Positions 20-45,541 of a stretch of 64,000 nucleotides of DNA are shown here, piece by piece. The notes under the pieces were generated by a model, which saw only the letters and a list, made by a program, of their open reading frames with translations, had not been told where the DNA came from and did not search any database. Numbering within the stretch: position 1 is the stretch's first letter; every line of letters begins with the position of its first letter. Source of the DNA: Dysgonamonadaceae bacterium (GTDB taxonomy: Bacteria; Bacteroidota; Bacteroidia; Bacteroidales; Azobacteroidaceae); the NCBI GenBank assembly GCA_031253625.1, contig JAIRVZ010000032.1:1-64000 (forward strand), given 5' to 3'. Both the position numbers and the translations under genes were made by a program.

Positions 20-331
20 ATGAATCAACAAATATTCAACGAAATACAAGCTTTGAAACGGCGATTGTTGCCGAATGATAAAGTAATTCTTTTCGGCTCG
101 CAAGCACGTGGAGATGCTCGCCCCGATTCCGATTGGGATTTACTTGTGTTGTTGAATAAAGAAAAAATAACTTACGAAGACGAAAATGCATACGCATATC
201 CATTTGCAGATATGGGATGGAATTATGGAACTTATATAAGTGTAAAGTTATATACCAATAAAGAATGGGAAGAACGTAATTTTATGCCTTTTTATAAAAA
301 TGTATTAAAAGACGGAATTGAAATAAATTAA
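20..331 (+). CDS. Minimal nucleotidyltransferase (MNT/NTase-fold) domain protein
   Basis: ILFGSQARGDARPDSDWDLLV matches the GSxARG...SDxDL NTase motif. Confidence 0.85.
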   Translation: MNQQIFNEIQALKRRLLPNDKVILFGSQARGDARPDSDWDLLVLLNKEKITYEDENAYAYPFADMGWNYGTYISVKLYTNKEWEERNFMPFYKNVLKDGIEIN

Positions 332-426: not shown

Positions 427-540
427 CAATAAAAAAGTAAATTACTGAAAGGATCAAAGATTTTAACCTATGATATAAAATAAAAATCAGTGCTAACAAG
501 CACTAAATAAAACATTTTAGAAAAAAGCGTTAGCTTTTAT

Positions 541-728
541 TCTTGTTATAGAAACTTAGACAATTTCTTAAAGGAGCAAGGGTAGGTGCCGATGCTCACG
601 CCAATTCCGGCGTGGGCTTACTTATTTGCTCCAAAGGTAGTCTAATACCTCTATAACAGATATAGTTAAAGTCCCACGCTTTTGCATTTTAAATAACCTG
701 CCGATTCGGGGCCAGAGGCATCAAAAAA
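541..728 (+). ncRNA. Candidate structured 5'-UTR RNA, copy 1 (unidentified family)
   Basis: Nested stems TGTTATAGA(544-552)/TCTATAACA(650-658), TTAGAC(556-561)/GTCTAA(640-645), GGAGCAA(573-579)/TTGCTCC(626-632), GCTCACGCC(594-602)/GGCGTGGGC(609-617); alternative pairing GCGTGGG(610-616)/CCCACGC(673-679); same architecture at 42051-42228. Confidence 0.6.
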
Positions 729-740
729 TTATTATTATTT

Positions 741-3737
741 ATGAGAAAAAATTTATTTTTACTGCTCTCCTGTAGTCTGATGGCAGTATACGGCTTTGCA
801 CAAACATTTATACCACCGTCAGATGACGTTCCCGGTGTATATGTCTATTCAATTGAAGATGGCAACAGCTTTTCTGGTGCAAATATCATGTTAGGTGATA
901 ATTTCAATGTGTGGCCATGGTCAGCAGGTTGGGATAAAGCTTTCACGCCAGAGAAAGGTGGAACGTACACAATGAAATTCACATTTCAGACTACCGGTTC
1001 ATTTGGAGGTATGCGTGTTCGTTGGATTACTGACAACAACTACGGAATAGACAAAGGAGAACCTTTTACAGTCGGTATGTTTGGTGAAGGCGAAGGTGGT
1101 CCCAACAGATTTACAGCCTTGAACGAAAACAATGCTGTTGCTGATGGTGTTTCTTGTTATTTCACAGGAGGTCCTGCTTATGGAATTGACGAGGAATATA
1201 CTCATATCGTTAACTTCACAATGGATGATGTAGCTGCAGGTGAAAATATCGGCAGTCTTGGTATTCGCGGAGGCGCAGGTGCAAACGCATTTATTGTTAA
1301 TACGATTGTGATTACAGACTCCAAGGGTAATATGCTCGTGAATTATGCAAGAAATCCGGCATCGCAATACTTTAATATTACCGCTACAGCCGGCACAGGA
1401 GGCAGTATTTCTCCAAATGGAGCAATAACAGTCGATTCCGGGGACAATCAAACATTTACTTTTGCACCCAACTCAGGTTATAAAATCAATCGGGTATTAA
1501 TTGATGGAGTAAATAATCCTACAGCCGTTTCTCAAGGAAGTTATACTTTCACAAACGTTACGAAAAATCATACTATTGCTGTTTCTTTTATATCTGACTC
1601 TCTAATAGAAACTGGTTGGTCTTTCGGTTTTGAACCATCAGAAATGGGAGAAGGGATGGAACCATGGATTATTTTAAACTCAAATGGAGCAACATTCGAG
1701 ATTACCAACGACGCAAAAACAGGAAGTGGTGCAATGAAAGTAGATGTAACCGAAACTGCGGATCGAATTTGGAAAGCCCAAATCCAAGCTCCTACTTTTA
1801 AAGTAATTCCAGGGCACACATATAAACTCTCTTTTTGGGCAAAAATGATAGGAGACAGTCCCAGTTGGGTGCGAGTTGCAAGCGAAGATACACCACTCAA
1901 TACTATGGGTGAGGACGTAAGTGCCAGCGGTGCACAATTAGGTTATTATGATGGACCACCTCGACCAAGTGGTTATTGGCCATATATCAATGATATAACA
2001 AATACTTGGCAAGAATTTGTTTATGATAATCTCGTCCCAAATCAAGATGAAGACTTTGATGGTGTTGTAACGTTGAATTTTAACTTCGGAACTCCTGTTG
2101 ATGAGGCAGGTATGTATTATAATCCGGATGTCATTGAGGCTGCTCATAGAATTTATTTTATTGATGATATTACACTTATTGATTTAGAGACAACTCCACC
2201 GGAACCCGAAAAATTTACGATTACCGCTATGGTCGGTGGTGATGCTCATGGTAGTATTTCTCCAAGTGGAACAATAACCGTAAATCGTGGAGACAATCAA
2301 ACATTTACTTTTACTCCAGATGTAGGTCATAAAATCTATAGAGTGCGAATTGATGGAGTAAATAATCTTACAGCTGTTTTGCAAGGAAGTTACACTTTCA
2401 CAAATGTAATAGCAAATCATACTATTGATATTGCTTTTGTCTCTGACACTCCACTTACCGATTGGCCTTTCGGTTTTGAACCATCAGAAATGAGAGAAGG
2501 AATGGAGCCATGTACTATTCTAAACTCAGATGGAGCAACGTTTGAAATTACAAGCGATGCATACATGGGAAATGGGGCATTGAAAGTTAATGTATCTGAA
2601 ACAGCAGATATGGCTTGGAAAGCTCAATTCGTAATCCCATTTTTTAACGTAACTCCGGGACACAAATACAGATTTTCTTTTTGGGCAAAAATGACAGGCA
2701 CGGAACAAAGCTGGTTAAGAGTTTCAAGTGAAGATACGCCACTTGATAATTTTGGAAATGACCTAAGTACCAGCGGTGCACAATTAGGACCGGATTGTTA
2801 TCTTCCGGATTGTCGTGATGCTGATGGTCTACCTGAAATATATTGGCCATTTATTACTAATATCTCAGATACTTGGCAGAAATTTGTTTACGACGATATT
2901 ATTACAAATCAAGAAGGAAACTTTAATGGTGTTGTAACATTGAGTTTCAATTTCGGGACACCTATTAATGAGGATGGAAAGGAATATATGCCGGAGCCTG
3001 TTATTCAGGGTGCTCGGACTTATTTTCTTGATAATATTATGCTTGTCGATTTGAATGCAACTCCTCCAGAACCTGAAAATGTATATCTCACAGTAACAAC
3101 AAATAACAACGATTTGGGAACTGTTTTAGGAGAAGGTTCTTATACCCGAAATTCACAAGTAACAATTTATGCTATTCCAAATATTAATGTTGTTTTTACA
3201 GGTTGGACAGACGGAAATACCGACAATCCTCGAAAAATAATTGTATCGGAAAATTCAACTTTCACAGCTAACTTTGAGGGACGCAATGTCACGGAACTTT
3301 TATCTCAGATTGCAGGATTGGAAACTGATACGGTAATTTATCGTGCACAAATTATAGAATTAAAAACCGATATAGTTGCATTAGAGACCTTCATTAGCAA
3401 TTTGCAAGGATTATTGGACGCTGCAAGTAACACCATTCTTGATTTACAAGAACAGTTAGACGAGTTGGAAAATCAATTAAAAGAATGCAAGGAAGGTAAT
3501 TCAGCCCCGCCATTAAAAGTTGAATCGTTGCAATTATATCCTAATCCTGCCACAGATCATATTACTATTTCAGGGTTAAAAGGGAATGAAATACTTCGTT
3601 TTTACGACATTAATGGCATCTTATTATTTAGTAAAGAGGCTATGCAAGAAACGGAAAATATTTCAATAAACCATTTACCGGCAGGTATATATTTGGTAAG
3701 AATAGGTAATAGTGCAATAAGAGTAATGAAGAAATAA
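741..3737 (+). CDS. Secreted multidomain protein: duplicated CBM-like modules, InlB-like repeats, coiled coil, T9SS type A C-terminal sorting domain
   Basis: Signal peptide; two ~200-aa repeats (WxFGFEPSEMxEGMEP...); repeated TITAxxGGxxGSISPxGTITVxxGDNQTFTFxP; C-term LQLYPNPATDHITISG...LPAGIYLVRI. Confidence 0.85.
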   Translation: MRKNLFLLLSCSLMAVYGFAQTFIPPSDDVPGVYVYSIEDGNSFSGANIMLGDNFNVWPWSAGWDKAFTPEKGGTYTMKFTFQTTGSFGGMRVRWITDNNYGIDKGEPFTVGMFGEGEGGPNRFTALNENNAVADGVSCYFTGGPAYGIDEEYTHIVNFTMDDVAAGENIGSLGIRGGAGANAFIVNTIVITDSKGNMLVNYARNPASQYFNITATAGTGGSISPNGAITVDSGDNQTFTFAPNSGYKINRVLIDGVNNPTAVSQGSYTFTNVTKNHTIAVSFISDSLIETGWSFGFEPSEMGEGMEPWIILNSNGATFEITNDAKTGSGAMKVDVTETADRIWKAQIQAPTFKVIPGHTYKLSFWAKMIGDSPSWVRVASEDTPLNTMGEDVSASGAQLGYYDGPPRPSGYWPYINDITNTWQEFVYDNLVPNQDEDFDGVVTLNFNFGTPVDEAGMYYNPDVIEAAHRIYFIDDITLIDLETTPPEPEKFTITAMVGGDAHGSISPSGTITVNRGDNQTFTFTPDVGHKIYRVRIDGVNNLTAVLQGSYTFTNVIANHTIDIAFVSDTPLTDWPFGFEPSEMREGMEPCTILNSDGATFEITSDAYMGNGALKVNVSETADMAWKAQFVIPFFNVTPGHKYRFSFWAKMTGTEQSWLRVSSEDTPLDNFGNDLSTSGAQLGPDCYLPDCRDADGLPEIYWPFITNISDTWQKFVYDDIITNQEGNFNGVVTLSFNFGTPINEDGKEYMPEPVIQGARTYFLDNIMLVDLNATPPEPENVYLTVTTNNNDLGTVLGEGSYTRNSQVTIYAIPNINVVFTGWTDGNTDNPRKIIVSENSTFTANFEGRNVTELLSQIAGLETDTVIYRAQIIELKTDIVALETFISNLQGLLDAASNTILDLQEQLDELENQLKECKEGNSAPPLKVESLQLYPNPATDHITISGLKGNEILRFYDINGILLFSKEAMQETENISINHLPAGIYLVRIGNSAIRVMKK

Positions 3738-41913: not shown

Positions 41914-42050
41914 CAAACGCAACAGTTCATTTTGGGAACTAAAATACTTGAAGTGTTAGGAATAATAACTACATTTGCCGTGCCGGTGAATTCATAACCG
42001 GCATAACTTATTGGTAAAATCAAACATGGAAAGTGTTTGACTTATTTCTC

Positions 42051-42228
42051 TCAAGTGAAATCTAGTAAATTTTGGAGTGAGAGTAAGTTGAATAGTTCTC
42101 ATGCCTTTACAGGCGTGGACTGTTGCTTATTTTAACTCCAAGGCATACTAGAGCCCCACTTGATAAAGTATGGCAAAGGTTCACGCTTTCTTCTTGTAAA
42201 ACAATCTCCTTTTTTGAACCAGAGGATA
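42051..42228 (+). ncRNA. Candidate structured 5'-UTR RNA, copy 2 (unidentified family)
   Basis: Stems TCAAGTG(42051-57)/CACTTGA(42157-63), TCTAGTA(42061-67)/TACTAGA(42146-52), TTGGAGT(42072-78)/ACTCCAA(42135-41), CATGCCT(42100-06)/AGGCGTG(42111-17); alternative GCGTGGAC(42113-20)/GTTCACGC(42179-86). Confidence 0.6.
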
Positions 42229-42243
42229 ATTGACATTCGCTGT

Positions 42244-43401
42244 ATGAAGCAATTATTTCCTGTCGAAATTGTCGAAAATTCCGTTCAAACACACTGGACA
42301 AAACGACATTCCAAATCTAAAATCATTTATTTCATTATTATTGTCAGTCTGATAGCCACTTTGGGCAGCTTGCCTTTTATTTATGTAGATGTATCCATAC
42401 AAAGCAGAGGGATAGTCAGGTCGGTAAATGAGAACAATAGCATACAATCGGTTGTTTATGCGGAAATTGTAAAAATAGAAATATTTGAAAACAAAGCTGT
42501 TAATGCCGGAGATACCCTGATATGGCTCAGAACTGATGAATTAGATGAACAAATATGCAGATTAGAAGAAAGGCAAATCGAAAACAGCTTATTTATAAAG
42601 GATTTGAACAATTTACTGTCGAATTCACACAAAAATGTATCAACGCCCAAATACAAATCCGAGTTGGTGCAGTATAGAACCAAACTTGCGGAACAAGATG
42701 TAATATTAAAACAAACCAAAACAGCATATGAAATATCGAAAACTCTTTATGAAAAAGGGATTGAAGCACGGTTTGAACATCAGCAAACAGAAAGCAAATA
42801 CCAATCTTCCAAATCGCAAAAGGAACTGGTTCACCGGCAGCAAATGAATAACTGGCAAGCCGAAATGACACGCTTGGAATACGAGAACAAAGATTTGCAC
42901 TCTCAACTACAACAATTGATAAAAAGAAAAAAGCAATATATCATAACAGCTCCTGTCGGCGGGAATATTGTACAATATAATAGTATTCAACCCGGCAATT
43001 TTACACAAACAGGACAGACTATTGCCCAAATCACTATATCCGATACTCTATTAATCGAATGTTATATATCTTCTGCCGACATTGGCTATATCGAAAAAGG
43101 GCAAAAAATACAGGTGCAAGTCGATACCTATAACTATCAACAATGGGGACTTTTAGAAGGAAAAGTCGCAGAAATTTTGCCCGATATAGCAGAAATAAAT
43201 AATATGCCATGTTTCCGGGTCAGGTGTGCAATGAACAGCAATTATTTAGAATTGCCCAACGGATATAAGGGTTATATGAAAAAAGGCATGACCATTACAG
43301 GCAGGTTTTTCCTGACAAGACGTTCATTGCTTCAACTGTTATTCGACAAGATAGACGATTGGATGAATCCTAAAATAATAAACCATGGGAATAAAAGTTA
43401 A
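42244..43401 (+). CDS. HlyD/membrane-fusion adaptor protein for peptide export
   Basis: Single N-term TM, coiled coil, ITAPVGGNIVQYNSIQPGNFTQTGQTIAQI lipoyl-like motif; overlaps the ABC exporter. Confidence 0.9.
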   Translation: MKQLFPVEIVENSVQTHWTKRHSKSKIIYFIIIVSLIATLGSLPFIYVDVSIQSRGIVRSVNENNSIQSVVYAEIVKIEIFENKAVNAGDTLIWLRTDELDEQICRLEERQIENSLFIKDLNNLLSNSHKNVSTPKYKSELVQYRTKLAEQDVILKQTKTAYEISKTLYEKGIEARFEHQQTESKYQSSKSQKELVHRQQMNNWQAEMTRLEYENKDLHSQLQQLIKRKKQYIITAPVGGNIVQYNSIQPGNFTQTGQTIAQITISDTLLIECYISSADIGYIEKGQKIQVQVDTYNYQQWGLLEGKVAEILPDIAEINNMPCFRVRCAMNSNYLELPNGYKGYMKKGMTITGRFFLTRRSLLQLLFDKIDDWMNPKIINHGNKS

Positions 43402-45541
43402 ACAACGCGATATAACAGATTGCGGAGCAGCCTGTATAGCCTCCGTTTCGGAATATTACAAACTGAAATTACCTGTCGCAAAAATTCGACAAATAGCAGG
43501 AACAGACCAAAAAGGAACAAATGTTTTGGGAATGATTAAAGCTGCCGAGCAGTTGGGTTTTGAGGCCAAAGGCGTGAAAGGCACAATCGATTCGCTTTCT
43601 AAAATTCCCTTGCCGGCAATAGCGCATATTCTTGTAAATGGGATACTTCAGCATTATGTAGTTATTTATTCCATCTCAAGGGGCAAGGTAAAGTATATGA
43701 ATCCGTCAGATGGTAAAATACATAAAACGAGTGTTGAAGATTTTGCAAAAATATGGACAGGCGTACTCGTTTTGCTTATACCTTGCGATGATTTCAAACC
43801 GGCCAATGAGAAAATCTCAAATCTGTCGCGCTTTTTCTTCCTGTTGCGCCCGCACAAAGGCATATTGCTGCAATGTTTGGTTGGAGCCATTATTTATACT
43901 GCATTGGGGTTATCCACTTCTATTTATGTAGGTAAGATAACCGATTATGTGCTGATTGGCGGCAATACAAACCTGTTGAACCTGATGAGTATGGGTATGC
44001 TCGTCATACTGGTATTGAGGGTTCTTTTGTCGGTATTTCAAAGCTTGTTCATGTTGAACACAGGGCAGCAAATAGACGCCCGGCTTATACTTGGCTATTA
44101 CAAACACCTGCTGAAACTACCGCAACGTTTTTTCGATACTATGAGGGTAGGGGAAATTATTTCCCGCGTGAATGATGCCGTAAAAATCAGGGCGTTTATC
44201 AATGACGTTGCTATTGCGTTAATCGTGAATGTTTTTATTGTGATATTCTCATTTGCGTTGATGTTTATATACAGTTGGAAATTGGCTTTGGTGATACTCA
44301 TCACAATTCCACTTTATGCAATTATTTATTTTATTGTAAACAAGTTGAATAAAAAGCAGGAACGCAAAGTGATGGAAAGCGCCGCCGAATTGGAAAGCCA
44401 GCTGGTTGAATCTCTTAACTTGGTAAAAACAATCAAGCAATTCGGGGTCGAAGAATTTACCAACCTGAAAACGGAAAATCGTTTTATCAAGTTGCTCAAT
44501 ACGGTTTATCGCTCAGGAATCAACTCCATATTTTCCGGTGAAAGTTCCGGATTTATCAATTTTCTTTTCACGATAATTTTATTATGGACAGGTGCATATT
44601 TGGTGTTGGATAATGAACTGACAGCCGGAACCTTGTTTTCGTTTTATGCCATTATCGGTTATTTTACCTCTCCGATAGCGTCGCTGATTGGCGTAAACAA
44701 AACAGTTCAGAATGCTTTGATAGCAGCCGACCGTCTTTTTGAAATTATGGATTTGGAAAGAGAAAGCGACGACGACAAAGAAAAGATAACATTTAACCCC
44801 GAATTAACCGGAAATATCCTGTTTGACAACATTTCCTTTAGTTATGGAACGCGCACACAAGTCTTCGAAAATTTCACATTAGAAATACCCAAAGGAAAAA
44901 TAACGGCTATCATCGGAGAAAGCGGTTCGGGAAAAACAACGCTTGCCGTACTTTTACAAAAACTGTATACGCTTAATGGCGGAAAGATACGCATCGGAGA
45001 ACACAACATCAACTATTTCAGCAATAGCAGCATACGCGAATGTGTGGCTACCGTGCCTCAGCAAATTGATTTATTTTCGGGAACAATCATCGAAAATATA
45101 GCTTTAGGAGAGTTTAATCCGGATATGGAGCGAGTTATTGAAATCTGTAAAAATCTGGGCATTATGCAATTGATAGAAAACCTTCCCGGAGGCTTTGCCG
45201 CCCGCATCGGCGAGCATGGCGTAGGATTATCGGGTGGAGAAAAACAACGGATTGCCATTGCAAGAGCATTATATCGCCAACCCGAAATATTGATTATGGA
45301 CGAGGCGACTTCTTCGTTAGATTCGGATTCGGAATATTGTGTACAGCAAACTATCTCGAATTACAACCGGCAGGGAAAAACGGTAATTATCATTGCTCAT
45401 CGTTTAAGTACAGTTATGTCGGCAGATAAAATTGTAATTCTCGAAAAAGGAAAGCTAATCGAAGAAGGTACCCATGCTCAACTTTACAAAGAAGGCACAA
45501 TATATTATGATATGTGGCAAAAACAAATCCCGGTTACATGA
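43385..45541 (+). CDS. C39 peptidase-containing ABC transporter (PCAT)
   Basis: C39: QRDITDCGAACIAS, LQHYVVI, NPSDG; NBD: IGESGSGKTTLAVLL, LSGGEKQRIAIARAL, ILIMDEATSSLD. Confidence 0.96.
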   Translation: MGIKVKQRDITDCGAACIASVSEYYKLKLPVAKIRQIAGTDQKGTNVLGMIKAAEQLGFEAKGVKGTIDSLSKIPLPAIAHILVNGILQHYVVIYSISRGKVKYMNPSDGKIHKTSVEDFAKIWTGVLVLLIPCDDFKPANEKISNLSRFFFLLRPHKGILLQCLVGAIIYTALGLSTSIYVGKITDYVLIGGNTNLLNLMSMGMLVILVLRVLLSVFQSLFMLNTGQQIDARLILGYYKHLLKLPQRFFDTMRVGEIISRVNDAVKIRAFINDVAIALIVNVFIVIFSFALMFIYSWKLALVILITIPLYAIIYFIVNKLNKKQERKVMESAAELESQLVESLNLVKTIKQFGVEEFTNLKTENRFIKLLNTVYRSGINSIFSGESSGFINFLFTIILLWTGAYLVLDNELTAGTLFSFYAIIGYFTSPIASLIGVNKTVQNALIAADRLFEIMDLERESDDDKEKITFNPELTGNILFDNISFSYGTRTQVFENFTLEIPKGKITAIIGESGSGKTTLAVLLQKLYTLNGGKIRIGEHNINYFSNSSIRECVATVPQQIDLFSGTIIENIALGEFNPDMERVIEICKNLGIMQLIENLPGGFAARIGEHGVGLSGGEKQRIAIARALYRQPEILIMDEATSSLDSDSEYCVQQTISNYNRQGKTVIIIAHRLSTVMSADKIVILEKGKLIEEGTHAQLYKEGTIYYDMWQKQIPVT

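Follow-up and report, generated by a model that had tools for sequence, protein, structure and literature searches.

Two hairpin-forming sequences in the window, a stretch of 64,000 nucleotides from a Dysgonamonadaceae bacterium, are members of a large, uncatalogued Bacteroidota family of folded RNA leaders. As an RNA class the element is new, although its kind is known. Comparison of sequences establishes a class of RNA leaders that is conserved, covaries and can take two mutually exclusive states; by the same kind of evidence, a promoter box of its own usually precedes the element, and its core is compact and pseudoknotted, with J4/5 kissed by an upstream loop. Regulation, sensing by the core and termination of transcription in the tail state are inferences from anatomy, as is the existence of a ligand-binding aptamer. 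We consider it probable that the element, as 5' leader of the mRNA that follows, acts in cis as a riboswitch-like attenuator, a reading for which we have no expression, probing or binding data.

From 5' to 3' the element consists of a promoter box (TAnnTTTG), the hairpins P0 and P0b, P1 (8 bp), an invariant AA, P2 (7 bp), AnUUU, P3, P4, J4/5, P5, the 3' strands, GGU(A), the 3' strand of P2, ACC and the 3' strand of P1, followed by a linker of 13-16 nt, the tail, a U-run, in some lineages P7 with an anti-tail in its loop, and the start codon. In the first copy of the window (copy 1) the following parts are recognized:

489..504, + strand: upstream hairpin P0 (AGTGC/GCACT), from the sequence
523..538, + strand: hairpin P0b (AAAAGC-GUUA-GCUUUU), from the covariation of P0b with J4/5
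526-531 with 591-596, + strand: pseudoknot PK1 formed by AGCGUU (Fisher p=1.1e-8)
545..657, + strand: core, from family covariation, coordinates verified
545-552/650-657, + strand: P1
556-561/640-645, + strand: P2
573-579/626-632, + strand: P3
581-586/617-622, + strand: P4
595-602/609-616, + strand: P5
636-638/647-649, + strand: stem Pb (GGU/ACC), enclosing the 3' strand of P2 and forming a pseudoknot with P2
673..690, + strand: tail and U-rich run, with CCCACGC (673-679) as alternative partner of 610-616
697..718, + strand: weak hairpin P7 containing CCAGAGG, from the sequence
708-712, + strand: anti-tail GGGGC, pairing with GUCCC of the tail (671-675)
741..3737, + strand: gene for a secreted protein with CBM_4_9, InlB-like repeats and a T9SS C-terminal sorting domain (Pfam)

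The second copy (copy 2, 42051-42228) comprises:

41970..41977, + strand: Bacteroidota -7 promoter box, TACATTTG, from the sequence and the enrichment of TAnnTTTG in the family
41983..42002, + strand: upstream hairpin P0 (CCGGT/ACCGG), from the sequence
42051..42163, + strand: core
42051-42057/42157-42163, + strand: P1
42061-42067/42146-42152, + strand: P2
42074-42078/42135-42139, + strand: P3
42100-42105/42112-42117, + strand: P5
42142-42144/42153-42155, + strand: Pb (GGC/GCC)
42178..42192, + strand: tail (GGTTCACGC at 42178-42186) and U-rich run
42204..42227, + strand: P7 region
42214-42220, + strand: anti-tail TTGAACC, complement of GGTTCA in the tail (42178-42183)
42244..43401, + strand: gene for an HlyD-family adaptor (Pfam)
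43385-45541, + strand: C39 peptidase/ABC exporter of the operon begun by the HlyD gene (Pfam)

All stems named by the first-pass annotation are present at its coordinates when checked against the sequence, as is the proposed alternative pairing of GCGTGGG (610-616) with CCCACGC (673-679), which has a counterpart in copy 2. Its view that copy 2 repeats the same layout with different stems was right and extends to further copies of the same genome, and the linkers of 3 and 4 nt between the outer stems, which it had seen in both copies, are a feature of the family (the 3' linker measures 4 nt in 187 of 189 copies). It had overlooked the GGU/ACC pairing (636-638/647-649) and the kissing loop (526-531/591-596), and since the loop of the upstream hairpin kisses 591-596, the element begins further upstream, at about 489, and not at 541 as had been assumed. 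Most copies possess an equivalent upstream hairpin of variable stem sequence. A recognizable promoter box is missing in copy 1, and the complementarity of its anti-tail is on its own not significant (p=0.08). The shared CCAGAGG, which adjoins the anti-tail segment typical of the family, carries no weight as evidence (2 found, 2.4 expected by chance). An exported T9SS protein as target fits copy 1, for which control of gene 741..3737 is itself inferred, but not copy 2, which precedes the HlyD/C39 exporter operon. Just 5' of copy 1 lies a small nucleotidyltransferase gene (MNT-like, NTP_transf_2; window 20-331).

How widespread is the element? Within the genome that the window comes from, plain DNA similarity already turns up three further places. 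A simple motif search gave mostly chance matches (23 versus 35 in reversed controls) and covariance models were therefore used instead. The first model (R1) was built from four copies trimmed to 130 aligned columns with copy 2 and one other copy held out; it matches copy 1 at 545-685 with 108.6 bits and recovers the held-out copy 2 with 34.7 bits. In the 3.14 Mb draft genome R1 matches 12 places, both held-out copies included (about 12-14 copies, 14 with more candidates scored), and upon extension of the search to 60 relatives it matches in 32 of 61 genomes. With a second model (R2), built from 41 copies, 153 of 395 Bacteroidales genomes have a match, spread over 93 of 208 genera, and so do 57 of 399 genomes in a sample of the phylum Bacteroidota. 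Among 15 named genomes 13 have a match, those of Phocaeicola vulgatus ATCC 8482, Bacteroides faecis, B. salyersiae, Parabacteroides, Dysgonomonas and Coprobacter among them. One plasmid copy, in Rhizosphaericola mali (class Chitinophagia), was identified by DNA similarity. With more candidates scored, the copy number amounts to about 115 in one termite-clade genome of 2.8 Mb and to 50, 42 and 34 in others. It should be noted that the E-values of the covariance searches are rough and that a few of the counted matches may be antisense shadows of palindromic stems, as seen among the weakest ones. An exact-motif scan pointed to 19 viral contigs, of which only 4 hold the element by model score. In two genomes (G031, G013) many copies lie about 500 nt or less from a contig end (e.g. 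L040, L271-L290) and the downstream gene is broken; as the assembly breaks the genes after these copies, the downstream genes appear to belong to highly repeated families.

Several lines of evidence support a conserved fold. Copies 1 and 2 fold with z-scores of -4.1 and -4.4, respectively, and in neither case did any of 200 shuffled sequences fold equally well. Across 102 sequences, 96.9% of the cells of P1-P5 are paired, 29 of the 31 pairs show changes in both partners, and covariation scores 0.771 versus 0.212 for shuffled and at most 0.10 for slid alignments, albeit these figures favor the structure because the alignment was fitted to it. Three pairings lie outside the covariance model, namely tail with P5 3' strand, GGU with ACC, and P0b loop with J4/5. 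In 189 copies Pb is GGU/ACC 124 times, GGC/GCC 22 times and never GGC/ACC, and the window pair itself shows this contrast (GGU/ACC in copy 1, GGC/GCC in copy 2). Since GGU/ACC crosses P2, the core is a pseudoknot. Moreover, the P0b loop AGCAUU is accompanied in J4/5 by AUG 18 times and by ACG once, and the loop AGCGUU by ACG 65 times and by AUG 21 times (Fisher p=1.1e-8, the cells being copies and not independent events). A further hairpin in the 5' strand, Pa (GAAA/UUUC), was dropped, as alignment column 11 covaries with column 257 and not with 21; columns 11 and 257 form the seventh pair of P2. Compensatory changes thus exceed chance in the shuffling and sliding controls, which is what defines a structured RNA family. 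For the original proposal of a cis-regulatory RNA this means that structure, covariation and exclusive states are confirmed and that regulation is not demonstrated; homologs with strong covariation, the lack of which would have spoken against it, were found in the hundreds by the covariance search.

The 3' strand of P5 has two partners, pairing with the 5' strand of P5 in 99.7% and with the tail in 96.2% (102 sequences), as compared to 31-66% in slid controls of the tail helix, so that the alternative first noticed in the two window copies is borne out by the family alignment. In the tail helix 6 of 7 pairs have changed on both sides. A U.G wobble in P5 is kept in 85 of the 102 sequences and the tail offers C at this position in 86 of 102; in 99% of copies the tail duplex is predicted to be stronger than the P5 duplex. 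Directly 3' of the tail helix follows the U-run, with at least 5 U among 8 nt in 92% of copies and a mean of 6.05 T per 8 nt. A stable helix followed at once by U's is the hallmark of an intrinsic terminator. By its stable GC-rich helix and U-run before the gene the element has the anatomy of an intrinsic-terminator attenuator, and by its mutually exclusive expression-platform structures it shares a defining property of riboswitches. Termination nevertheless is uncertain, because with P1-P3 intact the tail helix is a pseudoknot and not a plain terminator hairpin.

A TAnnTTTG promoter box is found within 170 nt of P1 in 84% of copies versus 13% in shuffled sequences (median distance 74 nt), the longest open reading frame that follows shares the strand of the element in 155 cases and lies on the opposite strand in 11, and the first start codon follows at a median of 61 nt downstream. 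On position alone, without transcript data, the element has the 5'-leader location expected of a riboswitch. Among 137 dissimilar downstream proteins Pfam finds SusC/RagA TonB receptors (11), BspA-type LRR proteins (7) and RibD_C (7), the remaining families being mostly seen once. By a simple rule 60% of downstream proteins are signal-peptide-like as compared to 26% of other nearby open reading frames, and 67% of downstream proteins of at least 150 aa are so. A metabolic riboswitch is unsupported, since this tally contains no single pathway, and the variety of the downstream genes is too great to hint at a metabolite.

Some individual loci deserve mention. RibD_C/dihydrofolate-reductase-like genes repeatedly follow the element in Parabacteroides, Dysgonomonas and Bacteroides (L268, L269, L203, L254-L258, L238, L195, L198), and in Dysgonomonas sp. 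521 several RibD_C-type paralogs each have their own leader. Among the peptide operons of the putative regulon, one leader (L036) is followed by a Cys-rich RiPP-like precursor accompanied by a radical SAM-like gene, and another (L054) by a small HTH-like protein, after which comes a double-glycine-leader peptide. At L196 an open reading frame about 450 nt 3' of the element encodes a reverse transcriptase matching retron/UG-type models (PADLOC RT-Protease_XI, RT-Toprim_I-C). In most termite-clade copies a YTATG with an immediate stop precedes P0 (ATG AAG TAA; ATG GAA AAA TAA), in copy 1 at window 470-478 (ATG ATA TAA), possibly a lineage-specific minimal upstream reading frame or protein-binding site. 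As a family trait an upstream reading frame (ATG-NNN-stop) was rejected (55% versus 46% shuffled; YTATG form 28% versus 9%), and since it is not family-wide it is left out of the mechanism below.

Neither window locus nor any of 20 further copies matches Rfam 15 at gathering thresholds, in agreement with the first-pass annotation, which had recognized no known class, and relaxed searches with seven diverse copies (E<0.1) and with copy 1 (E<5) returned matches at chance level only. No description was found in the literature searched, where four papers come nearest (PMC2864571, PMC8040213, PMC11697453 and PMC7366714), although mention as an unnamed candidate in supplementary lists remains possible. 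The Bacteroidetes motifs of Weinberg 2010 (Bacteroidales-1 RF01693, Bacteroides-1 RF01694, Flavo-1 RF01705 and Bacteroid-trp RF01692) are likewise candidate structured RNAs from the same phylum, but none of them matches the tested copies at gathering thresholds or the seven diverse copies at E<0.1 (PMC2864571). The accessible part of Fremin and Bhatt 2021 reports thousands of computed RNA candidates, some of them Bacteroidetes-specific, and includes HMP2_1881, a 108 bp candidate near radical SAM genes (PMC8040213); on this partial basis overlap with an unnamed entry of their list cannot be excluded.

How might such a leader work? We infer that the core of P1, P2 and Pb, with its invariant AA, AnUUU, GGU and ACC, is the sensor and that its state picks the winning partner of the P5 3' strand. 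With P5 intact RNA polymerase would read on, whereas capture of the P5 3' strand by the tail would create a new helix that, with the U's directly behind it, halts transcription ahead of the gene. Many Bacteroidales copies also have, next to the start codon, a hairpin loop that may compete for the tail and add translational control. This anti-tail is the complement of the 5' half of the tail and lies immediately ahead of the start codon, often within a hairpin loop; being 3' of the U-run, it comes too late to influence termination, so that a translational role is suggested for these copies and, judged from its position, an added translational step for the lineages that have it. Alternatively, the switch could be translational altogether, with the tail alternating between the P5 3' strand and the P7 loop and the U-run serving as landing site for the ribosome or S1. 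The anti-tail is complementary at p<0.05 (5% expected) in 42% of termite-clade/Bacteroidales and 29% of named Bacteroidales copies, just before the ATG, but in only 10% of wider-phylum copies, where tail and U-run are also conserved, and we regard this possibility as rather unlikely. What throws the attenuator is a separate question. GEMM-I/II riboswitches for the second messengers c-di-GMP and 3',3'-cGAMP occur in tens of copies per genome. Like them, the element is a multi-copy 5' leader of diverse, often surface or secreted genes, with a compact core, near-invariant unpaired nucleotides and an alternative pairing with a terminator-like end; it differs by the absence of an Rfam match, by another architecture and by up to about 115 copies. 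A dedicated RNA-binding protein, or RNA polymerase itself as in processive antitermination of the EAR/put type, which carries the polymerase through distal terminators, could take the place of a small molecule. The very many copies before unrelated, often long surface-exposed genes would accord with a global regulatory protein, the invariant internal-loop nucleotides fit protein recognition as well as ligand binding, and epsC/EAR and other processive antitermination leaders are likewise structured leaders of long surface-related operons. However, no candidate protein was identified, the downstream genes are often short, nested pseudoknots and near-invariant unpaired nucleotides resemble an aptamer more than they do the known hairpins of protein leaders, and EAR (RF01735) is from Bacillales and does not match the element. 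We regard a protein switch as possible but rather unlikely and place small-molecule sensing somewhat ahead of it; membership among the riboswitches, which rests on a small molecule or ion being bound directly and selectively, cannot be claimed.

Two further readings deny the element a role as leader. Its own promoter box and terminator-like end would also be expected of a stand-alone, trans-acting sRNA located before genes by chance, and Bacteroides does have multicopy sRNA families with their own promoters, FopS and GibS, which are defined as trans-acting sRNAs of 65-145 nt with an R1 seed and target susC and other mRNAs (PMC11697453, PMC7366714). Yet FopS has about 65-70 nt and GibS about 145 nt, the element differs from them in size, position and fold by published description, the seed aside, and no shared fold is described. 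The strong strand bias toward the downstream gene and the tight spacing to start codons also make this reading improbable. Even less credible is a mobile DNA sequence or recombination site, such as a cassette attachment site or transposon end, whose hairpin acts as single-stranded DNA. Copies do occur on plasmids and some viral contigs, have expanded alongside gene families, and occasionally form tandem element-gene units, which look as if they arose by local duplication (in one direction; L260 at 4978 and 5487, L264 at 4334 and 5706, L278 at 559 and 1269, L305). But stems vary among copies with compensatory changes, the tolerance of G.U pairs, the promoter and the U-run are signs of an RNA, and no consistent linkage to a transposase or integrase is seen in the regions examined. 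Copies within one genome are divergent, with a median similarity of 0.65 (in G013, 20 distinct P1 sequences among 23 copies, maximal pairwise similarity 0.84), unlike a transposon end or MITE, an identity that the first-pass annotation had named as a possible refutation and that is judged here without target-site duplications; gene-cassette/attC identity was dropped for lack of near-identical copies. The mobile-DNA explanation is thus disfavored.

Returning to the attenuator, a structured leader missing from Rfam is present in more than one third of sampled Bacteroidales genomes, common human-gut species included, and in tens of copies per genome in termite-gut symbionts. Its putative regulon is dominated by exported proteins such as SusC-like receptors, BspA repeats, RHS proteins and peptide exporters. 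Tentatively, and with less than even confidence, we propose that it is an orphan, phylum-wide Bacteroidota riboswitch class by which a single signal within the cell (a stress signal, perhaps, or a nucleotide second messenger) jointly controls a large set of surface and secreted proteins specific to the lineage. If so, up to about a hundred leaders per genome would be under one signal. To our knowledge few global RNA regulators are known in Bacteroidota, and finding the trigger would therefore open a new regulatory layer, for which the leader provides a testable target for ligand hunting in a major gut phylum.
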